A stretch of DNA of 64,000 bases from Candidatus Zixiibacteriota bacterium (GTDB lineage Bacteria > Zixibacteria > MSB-5A5 > GN15 > FEB-12), in NCBI GenBank assembly GCA_028289585.1, contig JANQPI010000026.1, positions 124,001 to 188,000 of the forward strand, read 5' to 3'. The notes under the pieces were generated by a model. That model did no database searches, was not told the origin of the DNA, and saw only the letters and a list, made by a program, of their open reading frames with translations. This document shows, in pieces, positions 5,065 through 41,313 of this stretch; positions within the stretch are counted from its first letter, which is position 1, and every line of letters starts with the position of its first letter. The translations under genes were made by a program, and so were the position numbers.

Positions 5065-5793
5065 ATGCGTTTGGTCCTCGTTCTCGTCGTCCTCCTGGTT
5101 GCCGATCTCGTTATCTCGGAATCGGCCTTTGCACAGCGCCGCCCGACTGGCGCCGGCGCCTATTCAGCCGGGTTGGAGGCGGCCCGCAACCCTAATCCCT
5201 CAGCGCTACGGGTCGCCCGACTCCAATATGGCGGGGGGGGAGACTGGTATTGGGGGAACTCGGCGATCCCGAACTTCCTGAAGTTCGTCCGCGACGAGAC
5301 CGCCTTGCCGGTCGATACCCTGGAGTATCAGGTCGAGATCACTGATGCCGAGTTGTTCAATTACCCGTTCCTGTTCGCGACTGGTCACGGCGTGATGCGC
5401 TTCACTGCAGAGGAGCGGGAGCGTCTTCGCGAGTATCTGCGCGCCGGAGGCTTTCTATTCGTTAATGACTCATATGGCATGGCCGCGACGTTCCTTGACG
5501 AAATGCAGGAGCTCTTTCCCGAGCGACCGATTGTCGACCTGCCGTTTGACCACGAACTGTATCGGAGTTACTTCGATTTCCCCAATGGTCCGCCCAAGAT
5601 TCACGAACACGACGGTGCGGCACCGCGAGGGCGAGCCCTGATCGTCGACGGCCGGGTGGTTGTCTACTTCCTGACCGAGTCGGATATCGGTGATGGTTGG
5701 GAGGATGAGCAGGTTCACGGTAACCCTCCGGAGAAACGACTCGAAGCGTTTCGGATGGGGACCAATATTCTGACCTACGCGTTGCTCTACTAG
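5065..5793 (+). CDS. DUF4159 domain protein, exported
   Basis: A 242-residue protein. Residues 1-23 are a signal peptide (hydrophobic run LVLVLVVLLVADLV, cleavage likely after AFAQ). The rest resembles DUF4159: RVARLQYGGGGDWYWG near the start, LFATGHGVMRFTAEERERLREYL, then GGFLFVNDSYG and FPERPIVDLPFDHELY. This family has a class I glutamine-amidotransferase-like fold and usually sits with DUF4175, MoxR and DUF58 genes. I placed the start at ATG 5065 to begin at the signal peptide; TATACT lies only 5 bases before it and there is no well-spaced Shine-Dalgarno. The DUF4175 gene follows 94 bases downstream. Confidence 0.85.
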   Translation: MRLVLVLVVLLVADLVISESAFAQRRPTGAGAYSAGLEAARNPNPSALRVARLQYGGGGDWYWGNSAIPNFLKFVRDETALPVDTLEYQVEITDAELFNYPFLFATGHGVMRFTAEERERLREYLRAGGFLFVNDSYGMAATFLDEMQELFPERPIVDLPFDHELYRSYFDFPNGPPKIHEHDGAAPRGRALIVDGRVVVYFLTESDIGDGWEDEQVHGNPPEKRLEAFRMGTNILTYALLY

Positions 5794-5887
5794 AGGTCAG
5801 GGCGCCGCGTCGACGGCGACCAACAACGAGAAGCAAACGTCCCGAATTGAGGTATCCGATTCGGGACTTGAGCAAGGGAGACGGCAT

Positions 5888-8800
5888 ATGCCGCCGATTT
5901 CATCGACTGCGGATCTGATCAAACGACTTCAGCATACTCTGGTCAAACAACGCATCATCTTGTTTGCAGCCGGTCTTCTGACTAGCCTCGCTGTCGTCAT
6001 TGCGGCTTGGTTGCTCTTATCGATTGTTGCTCAGGTGATGATTGTGCCGGTCTGGCTCAAGATCGGCCTGATATCGCTGGCCGGGATCGTATCAGCAACA
6101 GCTTTTGCCCGCTTTGCTCTCGTCCGGCTCTGGTCCGGATCGCTCGACGGGGTCGCGGTTGCTCTCGAGCAGCGCAATCCCTCGCTCAAGGGTGTCCTGG
6201 TTGCGGCTATCGATTTCGAACAGAATGGTGTTGCCCCCGGCTTTTCGCATGAGCTGGTCGAGGCGACCCATATAGCGGCGGTCCGGTCGGCCGGAGGTGT
6301 GAATACGAACGAGGTTGTGTCGTTTCATCCGGTGCTACGGACGACGAAGAGTCTGGGGGCAGCAACGGTCGCTGCTCTTGTAGCCCTGCTTCTGATCCCC
6401 GGGCTGTTTCAGCATGCGTTCGAGGTCTATTCCAACCCAACCTTGCTTGTCGCTCCGCCCCTCGCGTATACGGTTACCGCGACTCCTGGAACCGGCGAGT
6501 GGACCAAATACACCGACCTGACGCTCGGTGCGACCATTGCCGGTCAGCGTATTCCTGACGATGCGACACTCCACTACCGCCTGGTGGGCGGATCCTGGCA
6601 GACCGAGGAGTTTGACCTTGAGGCGATGCAGCGAGGTTCAATCGGATTGTCTGACTCAATCACGGTTGGCCACACTATCCGTCAGATCGCTCGATCGGTT
6701 GAGTTCTTTGTGGAAGCCGGCCGAGTAACCAGTGAGCGACAGGAAATCACCGTCGTCGACCGTCCCCGGGTTGAGGAAATCAATCTGACGATCTTTTCGC
6801 CACCATACACCGAATTGAGTCCACAGTCGATTGACGAACAAACCGGATCGTTTTCCGCGATTGTCGGGAGTCGCGTAAATCTTGAACTCGCCGCTAACCT
6901 CCCCATCGTTGGTGCGGAACTCGTTTTTGCAGATTCCAGTCGTCAGCCGCTCACTGTCGAGGGGGCGACGGCGAAGACATCGATCATCGTCGATGAATCT
7001 AAGAGTTACCACATTCGCCTGATTGACAATCTGAGTCAGATGAACCCGGACCCGATCGAGTACTACATTACAGCGACGCCGGATGAGTATCCGTCGATCG
7101 AGGTCGTCAAACCCGGGTTTGATGTCAACCTCACCGACGACATGCGCCTTCCACTCTTTCTGCGCATCTGGGATGACTTCGGCTTCTCGTCGCTGGTCAT
7201 GAAATTCGTGACTGTCGCCGACGGCCGGGCATCGGACGAACAGGTCGCGGTTCTGAGCTTCTCTGACAAGATCAAGACCGAAGGTGATATCGAATGGTCG
7301 TGGAATCTCGATCAGTTGTCGCTCCTGCCGGGTGACTTTGTGCAGTACTGGTTTGAGATTGCAGACAATGACCAGATCTCCGGTCCCAAGGTATCGACTT
7401 CGCGCAAGTACCTTGCTCGGGTGCCGTCGCTGGAAGAATTGACTTCTCGCTCGGAACGGCAGGGCGAGGAGCGCATCTCCAAGACTGAAGACGTTCTCCG
7501 CCAGGGCCGGGACCTTCTCCAACGGCTGAAAGATGCCGGTCGGAAGATCGAGTCGGAATTGCAGGAGAAGCAGGCTGACTCAGACTGGCAGCAGAAAAAA
7601 GAACTCGAACAAATTCTCCAGCAGAATCAGGAGATGACCGAAAAGGTTGAAGAACTCGCCGAGTCGATGCAGGAATCGGTCGAGGAACTGCGTGAAAACG
7701 CCCTGATGAGTCGGGAGATCCTTGAAAAGATGGAGGAGATTCGCGAGCTCTTTGAAGAGGTCGCCACTCAGGAGATGCGCGAGGCGCAGGAGCGTATGCT
7801 GGAAGCGTTGCAGGAGATGAATCGCAACGAACTTCAGGACGCGATGGAGCAGTTCGAATTATCTCAGGAAGAGATGCTCGATCGTCTCGAACGAACGGCA
7901 GAATTGCTCAAGCGCATGCAGGTTGAGCAGAAGATGGAAGCAATGGTCCGTCGCGCCGAGCAACTACTCGAAGAACAGACTCGCCTTGATGACGAAATCC
8001 AGCAGCGAGATGCCGAAGACCTTCCCGAACTCGAAGGTGCGCAAGATGGCATCCGCGAGCGCTTGGAAGATCTGAAGAAGGAAGCCTCCGAGTTGGAAGA
8101 ACTGCTCAAGGAAGCGGAACTCGAAGAAAACGAGTTTGCCAAGAAGTTCTCCGAAGCGCTGGAACAGAACGACGCCGACCAGGATATGCAGGAGTCATCG
8201 GAGGCGATGAACCAGCAGGAGAAGTCCGACGCCGAGGAATCGAGCGACGAGGCAAAACGGAAGCTGGCGGATATGCTGAGCGAGATGCAGGAACAGCAGA
8301 TGGCGATGACCGGTCAGCAGAGCCAGGAGATTCAGAACGCTATGCGCCGGGTTATCGAGGATGCCAACACCCTCTCGCTGACACAGGAGTCACTGCGCGA
8401 AGAGGCGACCGACATCCAGGCCAACTCGATGATCCAGCGGGAAATCGCCCAGCAGCAACAGGATGTCGCCCAGGCGACCGAAGGACTGCGCCGGTCGATT
8501 GCTGCCATTGGTAAGGCGACACCGTTTGTCGCATCGGAACTCGGACGAATCGTCGAAATGGCGATTACCGAAATGGATAACGCAACCGAACAGTTTGACT
8601 CTCGCTCCGGAACTCGAGCGGCCAATCATCAGCGGGAAGCGATGATCTATCTCAACAAGGTGGCCTCCCGCATGATGGAGTCGCTCAACGAGCAAAAGCA
8701 GTGCGAGAATCCGTCCGACGGCGCTCAGGGGATGCAGAAACTCGAAGAGCTGGCGCAACGGCAGCAGCGGCTGAATCAGGAGTCCGAAGGCATGTGCGAC

Positions 8801-29469: not shown

Positions 29470-29499
29470 CGCCGACTCACGACTGTGGGTCGGCGTTTT
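29470..29499 (+). terminator. Rho-independent terminator after gyrA
   Basis: Stem CGCCGACTCAC / GTGGGTCGGCG (29470-29480 and 29485-29495, one G-U pair) with a GACT loop and TTTT. It overlaps the last codons of the convergent NtrC-type gene, whose stop lies at 29477. Confidence 0.85.
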
Positions 29500-30817
29500 C
29501 TTTGGCTCCTTCGAGCCGCTTCAGCTTCTTGTACAGATGTGATCGTTCCAGACCAAGTTCGCGAGCCGCCGCGGCAATGTTGCCATCGTGGCGGGCGATC
29601 GCGGTCTCAATGTAGTCCCGTTCGAACCGAGCCGTCGCATTGCGCAACGACTCGCTGGTAGAATCCGGGATACGGGGAAGTAGCGTCAGGAGCAGTTCTG
29701 GTGTAACGTCTTCACCGGTCGCATAGATGTGAACGCGCTCCATCAGGTTGCGCAGTTCTCGTACGTTGCCCCGCCAGGTCTGCTTCCGAAGCAGCTCGAG
29801 GGAGCTCGGTTCTAACCGTCGTACGGCCTCACCGCTTTCGGCCGCCAGGCGCGACAGGAAGTAGTCGGCGAGGATCGGGATATCGTCGCCTCGCTCCCGC
29901 AACGGTGGCAGCGCTACCGCCACAACATTGAGTCGATAAAAAAGATCTTCGCGGAACCGACCAGAACGAATCTCGCTTTCGAGATCGCGGTTCGTTGCGG
30001 CGATAATTGTGCCGGTGACCGTGGTCGGCTTCTCTGAACCGACCGGTGTCACCTCGCGGGTCTCAAGGACCCGGAGCAGTTTGGCCTGAGCGGTTGGTGT
30101 CAGCTCGGCAATCTCATCAAGAAAGATCGAGCCACCGTCGGCGGCTTTGAAATAGCCGGATCGTGCTTTGCGAGCCCCGGTGAACGCCCCGGCCGTATGA
30201 CCAAAGAGCTCTGATTCGATTAGCTCTTTGGGGAGGGCGGCACAATTGACCGGCACGAATGGTCCATCGGCGAACCGACTCTGGCTGTGGATCAGATGTG
30301 CGACAAGTTCCTTACCGGTGCCATTTTCGCCGGTTATCAGGAAACGGTCGGTCCGCGGTGCGGCCCGCGCGATCAGTCGACGAATCTCTTCGATGACCGG
30401 TGACACACCGATCAATTGACCGAAGACCCGATCAACCAGCCGGGCGTTTTCGCTCGTCAACCGTCGACTGCGCGTTGCGTTTTCAATCGTGACGATGACT
30501 CGTTCCAGGACGAGAGGCTTCTGCAGAAAATCGAACGCACCCTCTTTCACCGCCCGTACGGCGTCGTCGATGTCGGCGTTGCCGGAAATCATGACTACCG
30601 GCGTATGTGGTTGCGACGCCTTCAAACGGTGCAACAGATCAAGTCCGCTGCCATCCGGAAGATAGATATCGAGCAGAATGCAGTCGAAGTCGGCGCTGGC
30701 GAACTGTTCCCCTTCACCAATCGAGGCCGCCGTCACGATTTCCCAATCGCGACGACCAAGAGCGGTGCGAAGACTCTGTCGAATTGCCGGTTCGTCGTCG
30801 ATGATCAGTATCTTCAT
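29477..30817 (-). CDS. NtrC-family sigma54-dependent response regulator
   Basis: A 446-residue activator. Receiver domain with phospho-Asp at residue 50 (CILLDIYLPDG), AAA+ domain with Walker A GENGTGKE (163-170), the sigma54-contact loop GAFTGA (210-215), Walker B IFLDEI (231-236), and a C-terminal Fis-type helix-turn-helix (NIAAAARELGLERSHLYKKL). All catalytic motifs look intact. It overlaps the upstream kinase gene by 4 bases (ATGA). rpoN lies elsewhere in the window. The 3' end is shared with the gyrA terminator. Target promoters are likely to include the divergent region at 33.6 kb. Confidence 0.96.
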   Translation of the reverse strand: MKILIIDDEPAIRQSLRTALGRRDWEIVTAASIGEGEQFASADFDCILLDIYLPDGSGLDLLHRLKASQPHTPVVMISGNADIDDAVRAVKEGAFDFLQKPLVLERVIVTIENATRSRRLTSENARLVDRVFGQLIGVSPVIEEIRRLIARAAPRTDRFLITGENGTGKELVAHLIHSQSRFADGPFVPVNCAALPKELIESELFGHTAGAFTGARKARSGYFKAADGGSIFLDEIAELTPTAQAKLLRVLETREVTPVGSEKPTTVTGTIIAATNRDLESEIRSGRFREDLFYRLNVVAVALPPLRERGDDIPILADYFLSRLAAESGEAVRRLEPSSLELLRKQTWRGNVRELRNLMERVHIYATGEDVTPELLLTLLPRIPDSTSESLRNATARFERDYIETAIARHDGNIAAAARELGLERSHLYKKLKRLEGAKENADPQS

Positions 30818-32400
30818 GCGAACGCTCCGGGAAGACTGATGGTCACCATTGCCCCCGTCTCGGTGTTAGCTAGCGTGATTGTTCCGGCGTGATCGGTAAT
30901 GATTCGCTGGGCAATCAACAGACCAAGACCGGAGCCGGTTGCTTTTGACGATTCACGGGGAGTGAACGGGTCGGCCAGCACGTTCGACGGAAACCCCGGT
31001 CCGGTATCGGTTACGTGGATCACGACGCTGGTGCCGTCACGTGTGACGTCGAGACAGACCCGGGAATCGGGGCTGGCCTCCAGGCCGTTCTTTACAAGAT
31101 TGATCAGTACCTGCGTGAGTTGATCTCGATCGACAACAATCGTTATGTCGCCTCCCCGAGTGAGGGTCACACGTCCGCTTGCGATATCGGTTGCAAAGAG
31201 CTCCTCGATGTCAGATAGGATACTGGCAAGGCCGGTTGGCTGGCGGTTGGCTGGTCGCATTCGTGCGAACTGCACAAACTCATCCAGCAGTTTCGTTACG
31301 CGTCGAATCTCTCGCCGGATCATCGTCGTCGACTGTTCGAGTGTATCGCCAAAGTTTGTGTTTTCGTCAGCGTACGCGGTTCGCAGATCGGCCGCGGCGA
31401 TGTCGATCGGAGTGAGCGGATTGCGAACCTCATGAGCGACCTTGCGACCGATTTCTTCCCAGGCCGCGATACGCTCAGCGATTGCTAACTGCTGGTGGGT
31501 CAGTCGAATCTCTCGTTGCATGCGGTCAAGCGCATCGGCGAGGCGCTGAAACTCACCCTCTTCAAACGCCATGACCGGCTGGTGATAGTCGCCCGATCCG
31601 ATTCGTTGTGTCGCGGCAACTAAGTTGTCGACCTCCCGCCGCGTCCGACTCAACAGGAACCACCCGATTAGCATCGCGATGATGACTGTCAGGCCGATCA
31701 ACAGAAAAGCTGGTGTCAGGGGGCCGCTGGCCAAGGCATCCGGCTCGGCCAGCAGTAGGGTGTATCCGTGCCCGTTTCCTCCGGCCACCAGAGCATGACG
31801 GTTACCATCGTCGGTTGTAATGATCGAACCGATCTGAGCATACCGTACGGAGTCACGGCCAAGCTCTTGGTTGGTGATGAGAGTCAGACGATCGGCAAGC
31901 GGTTGACCGATGTTTGCTGTGGTGCGGCTCAGTGGTTCACCACCCCACACCTGCCAGTCTGAAACTGTCGCAAAGTGCCAGTCGAACCAGAGTGGTCCGT
32001 CGGCGGTGAACTCCTGGCGTGCCAGTGATTCCTTGTCAAGCCATGGATCACCGGTCAGTCCCGGACGATTGGCTGCCCATACGATCCGTTGGTCGCGCAC
32101 AATTTGGAAGCGTTCGAACGGTAACACCGCTGGATCGAGACGAACCGGTCGGCCGGCCGACAGATTGTCGAGCGTTGTTGCGATCGATGGTGAGATCGCA
32201 ATCTCCTCGATCTGACTCTGCCGGGTGGTCCGCACTCGCTCTTGTGCTGACTGGACGAGGCGGATCTCTTGACGCCATAGTGTCTCTGCCGACAACCGCA
32301 ACTGTTGTGTACGGTGCTCAGTCAGGAGTAAGAGAGCCGCAATCGTCGGCAGCAGCCCAGCGATGGCTAATGCGACAATCACTCGCCGGGAGAGACTCAC
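30814..32400 (-). CDS. NtrY/NtrB-like sensor histidine kinase
   Basis: A 528-residue kinase. TM1 at about residues 7-26, a periplasmic domain of about 200 residues, TM2 at about 231-251, HAMP (252-305), H box VAHEVRNPLTPI with His at residue 323, N box NLVKNGLEASP, and G boxes DTGPGFP and GSGLGLLIAQ. The H-box form EVRNPLTPI is characteristic of NtrY-like kinases. It starts with GTG at 32400 in a 4-base overlap with the upstream gene (GTGA) and ends in an ATGA overlap with the NtrC-type gene, so the three are translated as a unit. Confidence 0.95.
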   Translation of the reverse strand: MSLSRRVIVALAIAGLLPTIAALLLLTEHRTQQLRLSAETLWRQEIRLVQSAQERVRTTRQSQIEEIAISPSIATTLDNLSAGRPVRLDPAVLPFERFQIVRDQRIVWAANRPGLTGDPWLDKESLARQEFTADGPLWFDWHFATVSDWQVWGGEPLSRTTANIGQPLADRLTLITNQELGRDSVRYAQIGSIITTDDGNRHALVAGGNGHGYTLLLAEPDALASGPLTPAFLLIGLTVIIAMLIGWFLLSRTRREVDNLVAATQRIGSGDYHQPVMAFEEGEFQRLADALDRMQREIRLTHQQLAIAERIAAWEEIGRKVAHEVRNPLTPIDIAAADLRTAYADENTNFGDTLEQSTTMIRREIRRVTKLLDEFVQFARMRPANRQPTGLASILSDIEELFATDIASGRVTLTRGGDITIVVDRDQLTQVLINLVKNGLEASPDSRVCLDVTRDGTSVVIHVTDTGPGFPSNVLADPFTPRESSKATGSGLGLLIAQRIITDHAGTITLANTETGAMVTISLPGAFA

Positions 32401-33584: not shown

Positions 33585-33626
33585 CACTCCTTGTACGCGC
33601 TATTTGGCGACTTCGTTGAAGCAAAT

Positions 33627-33708
33627 GTGTCCCTTTTGACACGCTGTAAGTTGTTATTTGATGGTTTATTATAGATTAGGGAGGGCTTTTATGTGTCATT
33701 ATTGACAC
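33627..33708. promoter_or_regulatory. Two 16-base palindromes GTGTC-N6-GACAC flanking a TATAAT box
   Basis: Palindrome 1 is GTGTC-N6-GACAC at 33627-33642; palindrome 2 has the same geometry at 33693-33708 (GTGTCA-N4-TGACAC). Both are followed by GC. Their centres are 66 bases apart. Between them, on the minus strand, lies a perfect TATAAT (33673-33668), a likely -10 for the operon with the exported protein, kinase and regulator. Palindrome 2 covers the -35 position of that promoter. These look like a binding site pair for a dimeric regulator, most simply the encoded NtrC-type protein. Confidence 0.6.
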
Positions 33709-33828
33709 GCTTTTGGCTGGTTTGAACGTTGCCCCTTTAGTGTAAGTCGTTGCAAGGCATGGCCTTGGTGAAGTGGCATGGCACTTGACTGCATTGCCGG
33801 CAGACAACGAACGCGAAAGGAGCGACTC

Positions 33829-34920
33829 ATGTTGAAACGCACACTCTTCCACCTTGCCGGCTTGGCTTTTCTGTTTGCTGCCTTGATCTTCACCGGATGC
33901 GCCGGCGCTGAAACCGATGAGCCTACCCGGACGGCGTCGGATTCGGCCACCACCGAGGTGCCACCGGCAGCGCTGCCCGCCTCCGCCTCTCAACCGGAGG
34001 GACCAGCAGAACCGATTCTGGCAGTTGACCCAACTCCCGCCGTGGCCCCGTCAGTTGCCCCGGGTGAGTTTGGTCGCGTCGGCGATCTGGCTCTCGTCGA
34101 CGGTCTTCTCTATGCTGCCTGTGATGCGGGTCTCATCCGTTACCATCCCGTGACCGAATCTGTGACACTTCTATCGCAGGCCGATCCCATTGGTACAGTG
34201 GCCCGGTTTGACGGTAATCTGTTCGCGGGTGGGTCCCGGTTGTATCGCCTTAGCGGCGATAACCTCCTCGTTGCCGATGCTGACCTTTCCGGTTTCGTGA
34301 CTGCGATGACGGTCTTCGATGAGCAGTTGTACGTCGGTACCGATGACGGTCTGTGGCGGTATTCGGATGGCGTGGCAGAGCAGGTCTGGTCTGATGTGCC
34401 GGTGACCACCCTGACCGCTCAGCTCGACCGACTCTGGATCGGCACTGCCGGCTCCGGCCTGTTTGATTACAACGGTGACACGATTCGTCGTCGCTATATT
34501 CAGCGCGATACGGCAGCTTTCGATGATGTTACTGTCCTTGCCAGCCGCGGAGCGTGGCTCTATGTCGGCACCGCTACTGGTCTGTACCTGTATGATGGCG
34601 GTCGCTGGGCGCAACGTTCAGTCATCGACGGCCTCCCGGCTGACATGATCACGGCAATCGATGCCTCCGGTTGGGTGGTGCGAATCGGTACCGCAGCCGG
34701 TGTCGTCGGCTACTTCGAGGATACGTTCACGCCCGTTTCGCAACTGGCGCAACAGGAAGTCCGTGACCTGGCTCGAATTGGTACAACCGTGATCGCCGCG
34801 ACTGACTACGATGGTTTGGTGGTCATCAACGGCGAACTTCGCCGGTCAATTGTAACTGCTGGAGACAGTACGTCGGCGCCACCCGAACTTGCCGAAACAG
34901 TGATCGGCTTCTCGTGGTGA
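33829..34920 (+). CDS. Lipoprotein with beta-propeller-like repeats
   Basis: A 363-residue lipoprotein. Signal peptide with lipobox FTGC (Cys at about residue 24), a Pro/Ala-rich linker, then from about residue 85 repeated blades such as VGDLALVDGLLYAACDAGLIRY, LYVGTDDGLWRY, LWIGTAGSGLFDY and LYVGTATGLYLYD. The (L)YVGTxxGLxxY pattern matches two-component-regulator propeller blades, here without any kinase domain. Start: ATG 33829 with AAAGGAG 7 bases upstream. It is divergent from the NtrC-type operon and shares its palindrome-bearing intergenic region, so joint control is likely. It may be a surface sensor or scaffold. Confidence 0.88.
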   Translation: MLKRTLFHLAGLAFLFAALIFTGCAGAETDEPTRTASDSATTEVPPAALPASASQPEGPAEPILAVDPTPAVAPSVAPGEFGRVGDLALVDGLLYAACDAGLIRYHPVTESVTLLSQADPIGTVARFDGNLFAGGSRLYRLSGDNLLVADADLSGFVTAMTVFDEQLYVGTDDGLWRYSDGVAEQVWSDVPVTTLTAQLDRLWIGTAGSGLFDYNGDTIRRRYIQRDTAAFDDVTVLASRGAWLYVGTATGLYLYDGGRWAQRSVIDGLPADMITAIDASGWVVRIGTAAGVVGYFEDTFTPVSQLAQQEVRDLARIGTTVIAATDYDGLVVINGELRRSIVTAGDSTSAPPELAETVIGFSW

Positions 34921-36709: not shown

Positions 36710-38905
36710 TCAGCCGTCGAGTTGCCGCAAGAGCGAGACAGCCGTGGTTCGTTCGTCGCCCCGCAGTCCAAGTTGCAGCGACATCTCCAGGGTCGGCTGA
36801 GCCTGGTCATCGCCTTGGTGGTACAGGGCCTGGCCGAGATAATAGAGTGGCTCCGGGACGCCAACGTAGAGGTTGGCTGCCTGTCCGGCGTAATTGATCA
36901 CCTGCTGCCAGGCTCCGTTGAGACTGAAGACTTCGCATGCGGTAAGAAGCGTCTTTAAATCGTGAGGACTGGAGCGGATAGCCGATCGGACGAGATTCCC
37001 GGCCCGGACAAAATCTGTCGAATCAGCCGCGTAAGCGTATGCTGCATAGCGGTTGGCATTGACATCGCCGGTAGCAATCGCCAGCAGGGAATCGAGCGCT
37101 GCCCGAGCAGCCGGACGGTTCCCCTCGTGAAATCTGACTCGGGCGGCCTCAACCGCGAGGCCAAAGTGATCAGCCTGAACTTCCAGGCCGGCGTCGACAT
37201 AGTTTCGCGCCGCTTCCCAGTCACCGCGATCGCCGGCGTCTCCAGCCGCCAATTGAAAGGCCTCGGGATTCCCGGGGTTGTTGGCGACCATGAGTGTGAA
37301 GACTTCACCAACTCGCTCATGACGCAGTCGGCGCCGCAGGGCCTCGGCAGTCGCCTCGTACTCGGCGAGCAGAGCAGACATCGGTGCAATGGCGCGACCG
37401 AACTGATCCAGACCGGCGTCAATCGAATCGAGGGCAATCAACAGTCGAGCTCGCGTTGTTCCCAGCTGCGGAACGCGGTCAATGCGCCCACCGAGGCTGT
37501 TGATATACGACAGCGCTGCCTGTGGACCATCGGCCAGCTTGGTGGTGATCATCCCATTGAGCGCGGGGAAGAAGACATCGTTCCGTTGGAGCGCGCGTCG
37601 GAAGTACTCGGATGCCGAATCGAGTGACAGCATCGCCGGTCGCAGGTGCAACTCACCCAGACCTGCCAGCCAGTCAATATCCGTTGGATGCTGCTGCTCA
37701 GCCAGATCGAGACGTGACTGCATCAGTTCGAATTGTTGTGAGAAGGCGAGGTCGTAGATCTCCTGAAGGCGGTAGCGGCGATCATCCTGCTGCCATCCGG
37801 GAGCCGATCGCAGTGACATGATATCGATCTCCGGTTTCATCGCCTCTCCGAACGTGAGAATCATGCGACCGCGGACGTAATGGATATAGGTGGTATCAGA
37901 TTCGCGACGTGCCATCAACGCGTTGATCAGCTGCACATTGTCTTTCAGCGTCAGTTTGTCATTTAGCCGGAGGCGTGACTCGATTTCAGCGAAGTAGGTA
38001 TCGATGTTCGTGCCGGTGTGCAGGATCATCTCGGCGGTTGCACGATCCGCCCGGAAGTTATCGTTACGAGCCCAGGCTAAGAACTGCCACAGATGAGCAG
38101 CGACGGCATTCTCAGCGTCCTGACCTCCGGACAGCGACGGAATCATTTCTTCCGCTGCTGAGTAGTACCCCATGGCCAGATAGCGCTTGAATTCGGCGTA
38201 TCGCTCTTCCTGCCCGGCGGCATCGCTCGCGAGGAAACGCTGACTGTAAATCAGGGCCGAGTCGTACTGTTGCCGGGACTGGTGCCAGTCGGCGCGGGTG
38301 AGGAGAAAATACGGGTGGGCATTATCACCCGCCGTGCCGGTGGCGGAGGCATCGGTCCGTAATGCCGAGTCGGCATGACCTTCCAGAAAGTACGACTGGG
38401 CGGTTAGTTGGAGGATCGCTGCCCGGTCGAGATCGCCGGGGTCGGAGATGAGGAACCCCTGGCGCGCTATGATAGGGCGAAAATCCGCGATAAACTGGCG
38501 CGCCCGTTCTAACTTGGCCCGGCTGTCAGCAGGTTGCCGGGAAACGAACTGTGTCCAGGCGCTGGCCGCCAGTGCGGGTTCATTGAGCTTTGCGTAGACT
38601 CGTCCCAAATGTACGTACACCGAATCGAACTCGGGGACATCCCGCTCAATACTGAGGTACCGTTCGAGAGCTTCTAAGTGAAGTCCCTGGCGTTCCTTGG
38701 TGAGTCCAATACCGAGACGGCCCAGAGGCACATCGGGAAAGTCGACACTCAGATCGGCAAATGTCGACTCTGCTTCGGCGAAGGCGAACTGATCGATCTG
38801 GTCGAGTCCCTTGGAGAACTGTTGCTGCATCTGTCGCTCGGGACTGGTGGAGCAGGCGAGAATCGTCAGTGAAATCAGGGCGAGAGAGCTAAGCTGTTTG
38901 ATCAT
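36710..38905 (-). CDS. TPR-repeat lipoprotein
   Basis: A 731-residue lipoprotein. Lipobox ILAC places the acylated Cys at about residue 18. The rest is helical repeats of TPR type, for example LGRLGIGLTKERQGLHLEALERYLSI and VYVHLGRVYAKLNEPALAASAWTQF, and ending with VPEPLYYLGQALYHQGDDQAQPTLEMSL. It heads an operon with the epimerase and nucleotidyltransferase. No Shine-Dalgarno is present; TTGACA-17-GATTAA lies 6 bases before the ATG. A role in surface polysaccharide assembly is possible but inferred only from the neighbours. Confidence 0.85.
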   Translation of the reverse strand: MIKQLSSLALISLTILACSTSPERQMQQQFSKGLDQIDQFAFAEAESTFADLSVDFPDVPLGRLGIGLTKERQGLHLEALERYLSIERDVPEFDSVYVHLGRVYAKLNEPALAASAWTQFVSRQPADSRAKLERARQFIADFRPIIARQGFLISDPGDLDRAAILQLTAQSYFLEGHADSALRTDASATGTAGDNAHPYFLLTRADWHQSRQQYDSALIYSQRFLASDAAGQEERYAEFKRYLAMGYYSAAEEMIPSLSGGQDAENAVAAHLWQFLAWARNDNFRADRATAEMILHTGTNIDTYFAEIESRLRLNDKLTLKDNVQLINALMARRESDTTYIHYVRGRMILTFGEAMKPEIDIMSLRSAPGWQQDDRRYRLQEIYDLAFSQQFELMQSRLDLAEQQHPTDIDWLAGLGELHLRPAMLSLDSASEYFRRALQRNDVFFPALNGMITTKLADGPQAALSYINSLGGRIDRVPQLGTTRARLLIALDSIDAGLDQFGRAIAPMSALLAEYEATAEALRRRLRHERVGEVFTLMVANNPGNPEAFQLAAGDAGDRGDWEAARNYVDAGLEVQADHFGLAVEAARVRFHEGNRPAARAALDSLLAIATGDVNANRYAAYAYAADSTDFVRAGNLVRSAIRSSPHDLKTLLTACEVFSLNGAWQQVINYAGQAANLYVGVPEPLYYLGQALYHQGDDQAQPTLEMSLQLGLRGDERTTAVSLLRQLDG

Positions 38906-39921: not shown

Positions 39922-41313
39922 ATGAAACTCGGTCTATCCCAAACACTCAAACTGCAGCAGACCCTCGCGCCGCAGTTGATTCAGTCGCTGCAACTGCTGC
40001 AGATGCCCCTGCTCAAACTGGAGCAGACATTACGTACCGAACTGGCCACCAATCCACTCCTTGAGGAAGTGCTCGAGGTCGACGAGGATCAGGAGACGCC
40101 GGATGAGGTCGCCGATGCCAAGGCCGAGGAAGAGTTTAACTGGGATGATTACCTCTATGGCGACGACGAGGAAGGCTACAAAGTTCGTGAGCCAGTCGAA
40201 CGGACAGAGGAGCGTTTCGAAGGTTCGGCCTCGGGCGATACCTCACTCTATGATCATCTGACCGAGCAGCTGCACTACCTGAAGCTGTCTGATGAAGATC
40301 GGCTCCTCGGGGAATACATCATTGGTAACATCAATCCCGACGGGTACCTGGCCATCTCGGTCGCGGAAATGGCCGCTGAACTCACGATCGATGAGGCGAC
40401 GGTCGAGCGCCTCCTGCGCGTCATTCAGACGTTCGATCCGGTTGGTGTCGGAGCTCGCGATCTGCGCGAGTCTCTGCTTCTGCAGCTCGAAGATCGTGAT
40501 CTCAAAGATACGCTCGCCTATCGCATCGTGCGTGATCACCTGCGTGACCTGGAGAAGAAATCGACACAGCAGATTGCTCGCATGATGGGCGTGCCGTTCG
40601 AGCGTGCCCAAAAAGCGCTCGAATGTATTAAGTCACTCTCGCCGACACCGGCGCACGGACGCTTTGATTCCGGTGCCGCTCCGGTCCTTCCCGATTTGAT
40701 CGTGGAGCGGTTTGGCGAAGAACTGATCGTCATGCACAACGACCGCAATGTCCCGCGGCTACGGATCAATTCCGGCTATCGTGAATTGATTAAACGCGGG
40801 AACACAACGCCGAATGAAACGAAAGACTACGTTCGTCAGAAACTTGAGCAGGCTCGGTGGTTGCTCAATGCCATCAATCAGCGCCGTTCAACAATGATTC
40901 GCGTGATGGAAGCGATCGTTGTCGAGCAGAATCTGTTCTTTGAGAAAGGTCCGGCCTTCCTCAAGCCGCTGATCATGGATGATATCGCCCGCATTGTCGA
41001 TATGAATGTGGCGACGATCTCACGCGTGAGTAAGGGCAAGTATGTGCAGACGCCGTTCGGCGTGTTCGAGATCAAACACTTCTTCAATACCGGTATCGCC
41101 CGTGAGGGGGGGGAAGATGTCTCCAAGCGTTCCGTGAAGCAACGGATCGAGGAGATCATCAACGCCGAAGACCCCGATCGACCACTCTCCGATCAGCAGA
41201 TCTTTACGAAGCTGAACGACGAGGGAATCAAGCTCGCCCGCCGGACAGTGACGAAGTATCGTGAGGAACTCGGTATTAAGGCGGCCCGATTCCGAAAGCG
41301 AGTTGAGGTCTAA
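39922..41313 (+). CDS. rpoN: RNA polymerase sigma-54 factor RpoN
   Basis: A 463-residue sigma54. Region I is Gln/Leu-rich (LSQTLKLQQTLAPQLIQSLQLLQ), followed by an acidic stretch (about residues 50-105), the core-binding region, the DNA-binding helix-turn-helix and the RpoN box ARRTVTKYR at 439-447. It recognises -24/-12 promoters and needs an AAA+ activator such as the NtrC-type protein encoded at 29.5 kb. Start: ATG 39922 with GAGGTAAGG upstream. It is 166 bases after lptB and 130 bases before hpf. Confidence 0.97.
   Translation: MKLGLSQTLKLQQTLAPQLIQSLQLLQMPLLKLEQTLRTELATNPLLEEVLEVDEDQETPDEVADAKAEEEFNWDDYLYGDDEEGYKVREPVERTEERFEGSASGDTSLYDHLTEQLHYLKLSDEDRLLGEYIIGNINPDGYLAISVAEMAAELTIDEATVERLLRVIQTFDPVGVGARDLRESLLLQLEDRDLKDTLAYRIVRDHLRDLEKKSTQQIARMMGVPFERAQKALECIKSLSPTPAHGRFDSGAAPVLPDLIVERFGEELIVMHNDRNVPRLRINSGYRELIKRGNTTPNETKDYVRQKLEQARWLLNAINQRRSTMIRVMEAIVVEQNLFFEKGPAFLKPLIMDDIARIVDMNVATISRVSKGKYVQTPFGVFEIKHFFNTGIAREGGEDVSKRSVKQRIEEIINAEDPDRPLSDQQIFTKLNDEGIKLARRTVTKYREELGIKAARFRKRVEV

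Follow-up and report, generated by a model that had tools for sequence, protein, structure and literature searches.

The divergent intergenic region described here very probably belongs to a dedicated three-component sigma54 circuit, in which an IHF-bent double enhancer would drive the gene for a beta-propeller lipoprotein; this reading is drawn from sequence comparison. The parts of the circuit are present in the window (the whole stretch of 64,000 nucleotides that was analysed), conserved among relatives, fixed in their spacing, and inherited together. The region comprises 244 bases (33585-33828), with a minus-strand operon on one side, transcribed in the order orf396, histidine kinase, NtrC-type response regulator, and the plus-strand lipoprotein gene on the other (Table 1). 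A first-pass annotation had already picked out the two GTGTC-N6-GACAC palindromes, both of which are exact and lie 66 bp apart, centre to centre, as well as the minus-strand TATAAT between them and the rpoN gene elsewhere in the window, which Pfam confirmed. Overlooked in that first reading were two symmetric boxes, one between palindrome 2 and the lipoprotein gene (33743-33767) and a weak one between the palindromes (33647-33671).

Table 1. Positions of the genes and control elements in the window, with predicted roles
Feature	Position	Strand	Remarks
Palindrome 1, GTGTC-N6-GACAC, putative upstream enhancer half	33627-33642	.	Exact; letters GTGTCCCTTTTGACAC
Palindrome 2, putative promoter-proximal enhancer half	33693-33708	.	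Exact; letters GTGTCATTATTGACAC
Symmetric IHF-like site, TAAGTCGTTG-CAAGG-CATGGCCTTG	33743-33767	.	11/12 consensus bases
Probable second, weak IHF-like site between the palindromes	33647-33671	.	8/12 in the window; better in relatives
Sigma54-type promoter of the lipoprotein gene, TGGCAT-N5-TTGA	33774-33788	+	Box at fixed distance in 33/33 loci
TATAAT, putative sigma70 -10 of the divergent operon	33668-33673	-	Recurs in part of the relatives only
Seven-bladed beta-propeller lipoprotein, predicted single target	33829-34920	+	Shine-Dalgarno AAAGGAG at 33816-33822
orf396, secreted substrate-binding-protein-like partner, 396 residues	32397-33587	-	
Sensor histidine kinase (HAMP, HisKA, HATPase)	30814-32400	-	
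NtrC-type response regulator / sigma54 activator (receiver, AAA+, Fis-type HTH)	29477-30817	-	
rpoN (sigma54)	39922-41313	+	Pfam

The palindromes are conserved outside the window. GTGTC-N6-GACAC occurs only twice in the 64 kb, and five times in the genome as a whole (3.15 Mb), compared with two occurrences of the reversed pattern. Conservation was assessed by searching for the lipoprotein in 61 genomes, namely the window's own and 60 relatives. It was matched in 33 of them (E 2.5e-27 or better, ~29-38% identity), while weaker matches in the other genomes resemble fragments of unrelated propellers. The named relatives that have the lipoprotein are mostly Candidatus Zixiibacteriota, with one member of candidate division GN15 and one of Calditrichota. 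The first-pass annotation had set the absence of the palindromes from orthologous loci as its refuting outcome; what we found instead was an exact copy upstream of the lipoprotein gene in 31 of the 33 loci (window included) and a copy with one mismatch in the remaining two (L007 and L021). Two copies are exact in 15/33 loci; in 20/33 the two copies, with no more than one mismatch in each, lie 63-66 bp apart, and in six more loci the partner at 60-65 bp is weaker. At least two palindromes also arose in 2 of 100 shuffles of the 64 kb window, which would be compatible with a functionless chance repeat, but a spacing conserved across loci whose proteins are only ~29-38% identical refutes that explanation and leaves it with practically no likelihood.

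The pair is not essential everywhere, since palindrome 1 is unrecognisable in 7/33 loci. Five of these belong to family f2 (L026, L030, L033, L034, L059), and the other two, L010 and L021, are both loci of one f1 genus. Among seven further named loci outside the 33, the palindrome is exact in four (L072, L079, L080, L083), has one mismatch in two (L078 and L084, the L084 copy standing ~150 bp upstream of the start codon), and is absent upstream of the lipoprotein gene in L081. No wider regulon is visible, because ten other copies in relatives (L063-L065, L184-L190) have neither a partner at 64 bp nor a sigma54-like box in range. In the window's genome, TGTC-N8-GACA occurs at 54 places, compared with 25 for the reversed control; this excess is spread out.

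We next consider the promoter of the lipoprotein gene. A free scan of the ~150 bp after palindrome 2, in each of the 33 loci, placed the first base of the best sigma54-type box 72-76 bp from the centre of palindrome 2 in every case. In the window, the box reads TGGCAT-GGCAC-TTGAC (33774-33789) and starts 73 bp from that centre. All 33 loci keep GGCAY at -24 and the same spacing. The position of the classical -12 C is occupied by A in 25 loci, T in 5 and C in 3, a comparison limited by the small weight that the box-placing score gave to the A of TTGA. With A at this position in 25/33 loci, a TTGA-type -12, however 'poor' by the usual standard, is the ordinary form in this lineage. In the 61 genomes, TGGCAC-N5-TTGAT was counted 255 times, vs. 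141 times with an 8-base spacer; the corresponding TTGCW pattern gave 205 vs. 120, with the reversed pattern as its sole control. Both elements of the window copy fall below the family norm (TGGCAT at -24, TTGAC at -12).

Two sigma54 candidates, each described as flawed, had been proposed at first pass, and both stand where they were placed. Of the two, TGGCAT-N5-TTGA is the right one, and its -12 is not poor among these relatives; TGGTTT-N5-TTGC (33718-33732) did not hold up. In this second sequence the invariant GG and GC stand 10 bases apart and the -12 is of textbook form, but the sequence has no counterpart in the 33-locus alignment, in which the box at 33774-33788 is kept at a fixed distance instead, and it begins only ~18 bp from the centre of palindrome 2. 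So short a distance leaves too little room for activator and polymerase together. We therefore rejected it, and consider it highly improbable that it works as a sigma54 promoter. For the conserved box, counting the last A of TTGA as -12, transcription would start near 33800, and the palindromes would be centred near -99 (palindrome 2) and -165 (palindrome 1). Enhancers of sigma54 promoters usually lie 80-150 bp upstream of the start, and the predicted distance of palindrome 2 (~99 bp, centre to start) falls within this range.

Between palindrome 2 and this promoter, all 33 loci carry a version of TAA-N4-TTG-N5-CAA-N4-TTR, centred 19 bp (24 loci) or 20 bp (9 loci) before the -24 element. Its mean score is 10.2/12, compared with 7.1 in shuffles (best shuffle mean 7.4); individual scores range from 7 (L007) to 12, and the window copy reaches 11/12. 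A similar box follows palindrome 1 in 26 loci, with its centre 22-24 bp away in 23/26 and a mean score of 9.2 vs. 6.8 in shuffles, the window copy scoring only 8/12. In its sequence, the symmetric box resembles a pair of inverted IHF half-sites, and it is the probable site of an IHF-like protein. The E. coli IHF consensus, as given in the excerpt available of PMC7962754, is the asymmetric WATCAR-N4-TTR. The family box has the CAA-N4-TTR core of this consensus on both sides, with the WAT part missing, and in the window (33743-33767) one half is an exact CAA-N4-TTR and the other is CAT-N4-TTG. Two HU/IHF family genes are present in most of the 61 genomes. In the six genomes that we typed, one gene scored best as HU and one was IHF-like, with about equal scores against both IHF subunit models, all of the HU/IHF scores lying below the curated cut-offs. 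A single IHF-like gene would imply a homodimer, which in turn would be expected to read a symmetric site.

The same motif recurs elsewhere in these genomes. The exact symmetric pattern is present at 199 places in the 61 genomes, compared with 19 for the reversed pattern (~tenfold). We fetched 30 of these places, one per genome, and left out one that was this locus. A sigma54-like box follows in 8 of the 29 others, at 20, 20, 30, 41, 41, 42, 42 and 44 bp, where random anchors gave an expectation of 0.23 of 29 and at most 3 in 2000 trials. This was also true, at a smaller share than 8/29, for a second set of 16 places, taken from other genomes of the phylum, two of which have such a box (30 and 39 bp) vs. 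0.13 expected. In the window's own genome, two of six places are followed, at 29 and 38 bp, by a sigma54-like box of looser form. Altogether, 46 symmetric boxes in relatives were examined, and 6 in the genome of the window. Over 11 cases, including the locus itself, the distances from box to promoter cluster near 20, 30 and 41 bp, although 39 and 44 fit poorly; these values are about one helical turn apart, and the clustering suggests helical phasing. The Zixibacteria places with the symmetric motif include L149-L183 and L201-L216. In L169 and L170, from two relatives, a sigma54-like box stands 41 bp beyond the motif and is followed by a near-identical, unusually conserved leader of ~65 bases.

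Alternatively, the symmetric TAA-N4-TTG-N5-CAA-N4-TTR boxes could be sites of a second regulator and not of an IHF-like protein. Their full symmetry, which sets them apart from the asymmetric E. coli WATCAR-N4-TTR in the excerpted PMC7962754, speaks for such a regulator. However, each half is CAA-N4-TTR, the core of the IHF consensus, and symmetry is what a single undifferentiated IHF-like gene would lead one to expect. Moreover, the boxes recur before other sigma54-like boxes and sit between enhancer and sigma54 promoter, as IHF does at orp in Desulfovibrio, according to the portion available of PMC3897727. We consider a second regulator unlikely, and retain an IHF-like protein as the probable partner of the box. 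Beyond this, we put forward, as a tentative proposal that falls a little short of being favoured, that a homodimeric, single-gene IHF of Zixibacteria may read TAA-N4-TTG-N5-CAA-N4-TTA near 20, 30 or 41 bp before TTGA-type sigma54 promoters, and that here two bends may gather both palindromes of the enhancer into one activator assembly serving one gene.

The candidate for the protein at the palindromes is encoded by the operon itself. Its regulator consists of a receiver, an AAA+ domain with GAFTGA, and a Fis-type HTH, and thus has both the AAA+ and the HTH of a sigma54 activator; Pfam, together with intact Walker A, Walker B and GAFTGA motifs, bears out the earlier statement that it is intact. 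Equivalog names were rejected for this activator (NtrC, NtrX, AtoC, ZraR or PrsR) and for the kinase, because the scores are under the curated NCBIfam cut-offs. Wherever contigs are long enough, the activator (49-60% identical) and the kinase are always divergent to the lipoprotein gene, with the palindromes between them. Activator orthologs (E at most 1e-120) were found in 26/61 genomes, all of them among the 33 with the lipoprotein; at the same threshold, none was found in the 28 genomes without it (Fisher 3.6e-11, for related genomes in which the events are not independent). Seven genomes with the lipoprotein have no full activator match. A partial activator is present in two of these (G027, G060), and no activator was seen in the other five, whose contigs are short. 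The genera g12, g17 and g20 each hold one genome with both genes and one without either.

Among the 22 complete activators, 20 have the identical recognition helix, ERSHLYKK. Because of this conserved helix and the co-inheritance, we infer that the palindromes would be bound by the NtrC-type regulator. Palindromes of the GTGTC-N6-GACAC type are common across many regulator families, and these genomes contain further exact copies, so that another factor, such as a repressor coded elsewhere, might occupy the palindromes while the NtrC-type protein acts at other sites. This is rather improbable, however, as the sites track the activator gene (the lipoprotein locus is present in 26/26 activator-bearing genomes), the ten other copies have neither a 64 bp partner nor a sigma54-like box, and palindrome 2 lies ~99 bp upstream of the predicted start, the usual place of sigma54 enhancers.

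A self-regulated circuit that switches on the lipoprotein had also been suggested at first pass. This idea is supported, as the activator, the palindromes and the lipoprotein are kept or lost together, with the correction that autoregulation at the -10 is not general. Palindrome 2 does cover the -35 position of the TATAAT promoter (33691-33697), as had been claimed, although the match to TTGACA there is poor. In the window, occupancy of palindrome 2 by the same regulator could shut off the -10 of its own operon (33668-33673). A -10 box between the palindromes, at offsets 15-19, is found in 11/33 loci only, which makes autoregulation plausible there and not in general. Many relatives seem to use another operon promoter, left of palindrome 1.

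A distinct arrangement stands to the left of palindrome 1 in many relatives (upstream regions of L007-L035 and L060), where an A-tract is followed by CTTGT and then, ~24 bases on, by TTGATTGTATAAT. The gap between CTTGT and TTGATTGTATAAT is too long for an ordinary -35/-10 pair, and the arrangement is absent from the window.

We also examined the two extracytoplasmic candidates, orf396 and the lipoprotein. Neither orf396 nor 19 aligned homologs matched a Pfam family at useful E-values, and there was no match to PF00496 (SBP_bac_5). A sequence search of the PDB gave weak matches (a dipeptide-binding protein at E 0.15, behind a phage collar protein at 0.12), and we therefore used a fold search. 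The predicted model of a homolog from L076 (pLDDT 77.7) matched sialic-acid, nickel and dipeptide binding proteins, with E-values of 1.7e-12 to 1.3e-9 among the best 50 matches. In L054 (family f2), the divergent gene (5123-6775) encodes a 551-residue, full-length version of orf396, which scores 15.4 bits against SBP_bac_5 (gathering score 32.4). In the genomes of L010 and L021, no recognisable version of orf396 lies between kinase and lipoprotein. On the strength of the predicted model, orf396 would be a shortened derivative of a substrate-binding protein that acts as a sensor partner.

In the lipoprotein, the lipobox Cys24 is invariant in 23/23 aligned homologs, and distant homologs (L078-L081, L083, L084) have an N-terminal hydrophobic stretch without that cysteine. 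The predicted model (pLDDT 81.7) is a seven-bladed propeller, with the blades counted by eye, and its closest solved folds in the PDB are the BT4663 sensor, designed propellers and BamB; Reg_prop is matched by 16/23 homologs. The downstream neighbours of the gene differ between relatives, so no co-transcribed gene points to a role. That a free propeller lipoprotein is the predicted sole target suggests feedback within the sensing system or, alternatively, a role in assembling the outer membrane.

The circuit that we infer, with its signal, its binding partners, the bending of its DNA, the direction of its regulation, and the autorepression of the operon through palindrome 2, would work as follows. 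The secreted protein with the substrate-binding fold and the membrane kinase would together sense an envelope signal, upon which the kinase would phosphorylate the NtrC-type regulator. Phosphorylated regulator would then fill palindromes 1 and 2. The single-gene IHF-like protein would introduce a bend at 33743-33767, on the promoter side of palindrome 2, and probably another at the box between the palindromes, and both regulator dimers would be brought onto sigma54-RNA polymerase at TGGCAT-N5-TTGA. The polymerase would be opened at 33774-33788, and the propeller lipoprotein would be made.

This locus offers a tractable enhancer in a largely uncultivated phylum, with each DNA part placed to the base. 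It can be used to ask directly whether an IHF encoded by a single gene recognises a symmetric site, it bears on how strict sigma54 is about the -12 element, and it connects a so far uncharacterised propeller lipoprotein with a system that senses the envelope.

Several known systems share features with this circuit. Like the NtrC / AtoC / ZraR / NtrX class, the regulator combines a receiver, an AAA+ domain with GAFTGA and a Fis-type HTH, and the palindromic enhancer lies ~100 bp upstream of the promoter; the palindrome, GTGTCA-N4-TGACAC, is not known as a site of NtrC or NtrX. An NtrC-like regulator with a kinase is also found in PrsK/PrsR of the PEP-CTERM system, but the scores here are far under the curated cut-offs (354.9 vs. 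502.6 and 69.2 vs. 300). In the same window, a TPR protein at 36710-38905 shows a weak likeness to PrsT of the XrtA/PEP-CTERM system. The predicted fold of the lipoprotein resembles that of Reg_prop sensors (BT4663) and BamB. Unlike the Reg_prop sensors, it is a free lipoprotein outside the sensor kinase, and a predicted target instead of the regulator's receptor.

Our literature search found no paper naming both Zixibacteria and sigma54, and searches on the palindrome sequence, on two-component systems of Zixibacteria and on symmetric IHF sites found no description of this circuit. Of two papers available as excerpts (PMC4641369 and PMC3333781), one gives a different inverted repeat, yGTCA-N6-TGACr, and the other reports that most Desulfovibrio response-regulator sites are inverted repeats of 4-6 bp. 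The closest described layout that we found is the orp region of Desulfovibrio vulgaris, as presented in the excerpt available of PMC3897727. There, IHF sites lie between the palindromes of the sigma54 activator DVU2106 and the sigma54 promoters, and the activator's sigma70 promoter overlaps its own binding site. Since that layout has already been described in this excerpt, the general mechanism is known. The two loci share the divergent arrangement and, on the predictions made here, palindromic activator sites, IHF-type sites before the sigma54 promoter, and a sigma70 promoter overlapped by the activator's own site. At orp, according to the same excerpt, IHF is a heterodimer with asymmetric, E. 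coli-like sites, and DVU2106 drives operons linked to cell division. In contrast to orp as excerpted, the locus described here has a symmetric box, a probable second box inside a spacing-locked pair of palindromes, and a TTGA-type -12; and whereas the excerpt of PMC3897727 names no kinase or substrate-binding partner, the design proposed here has three components and a single target.
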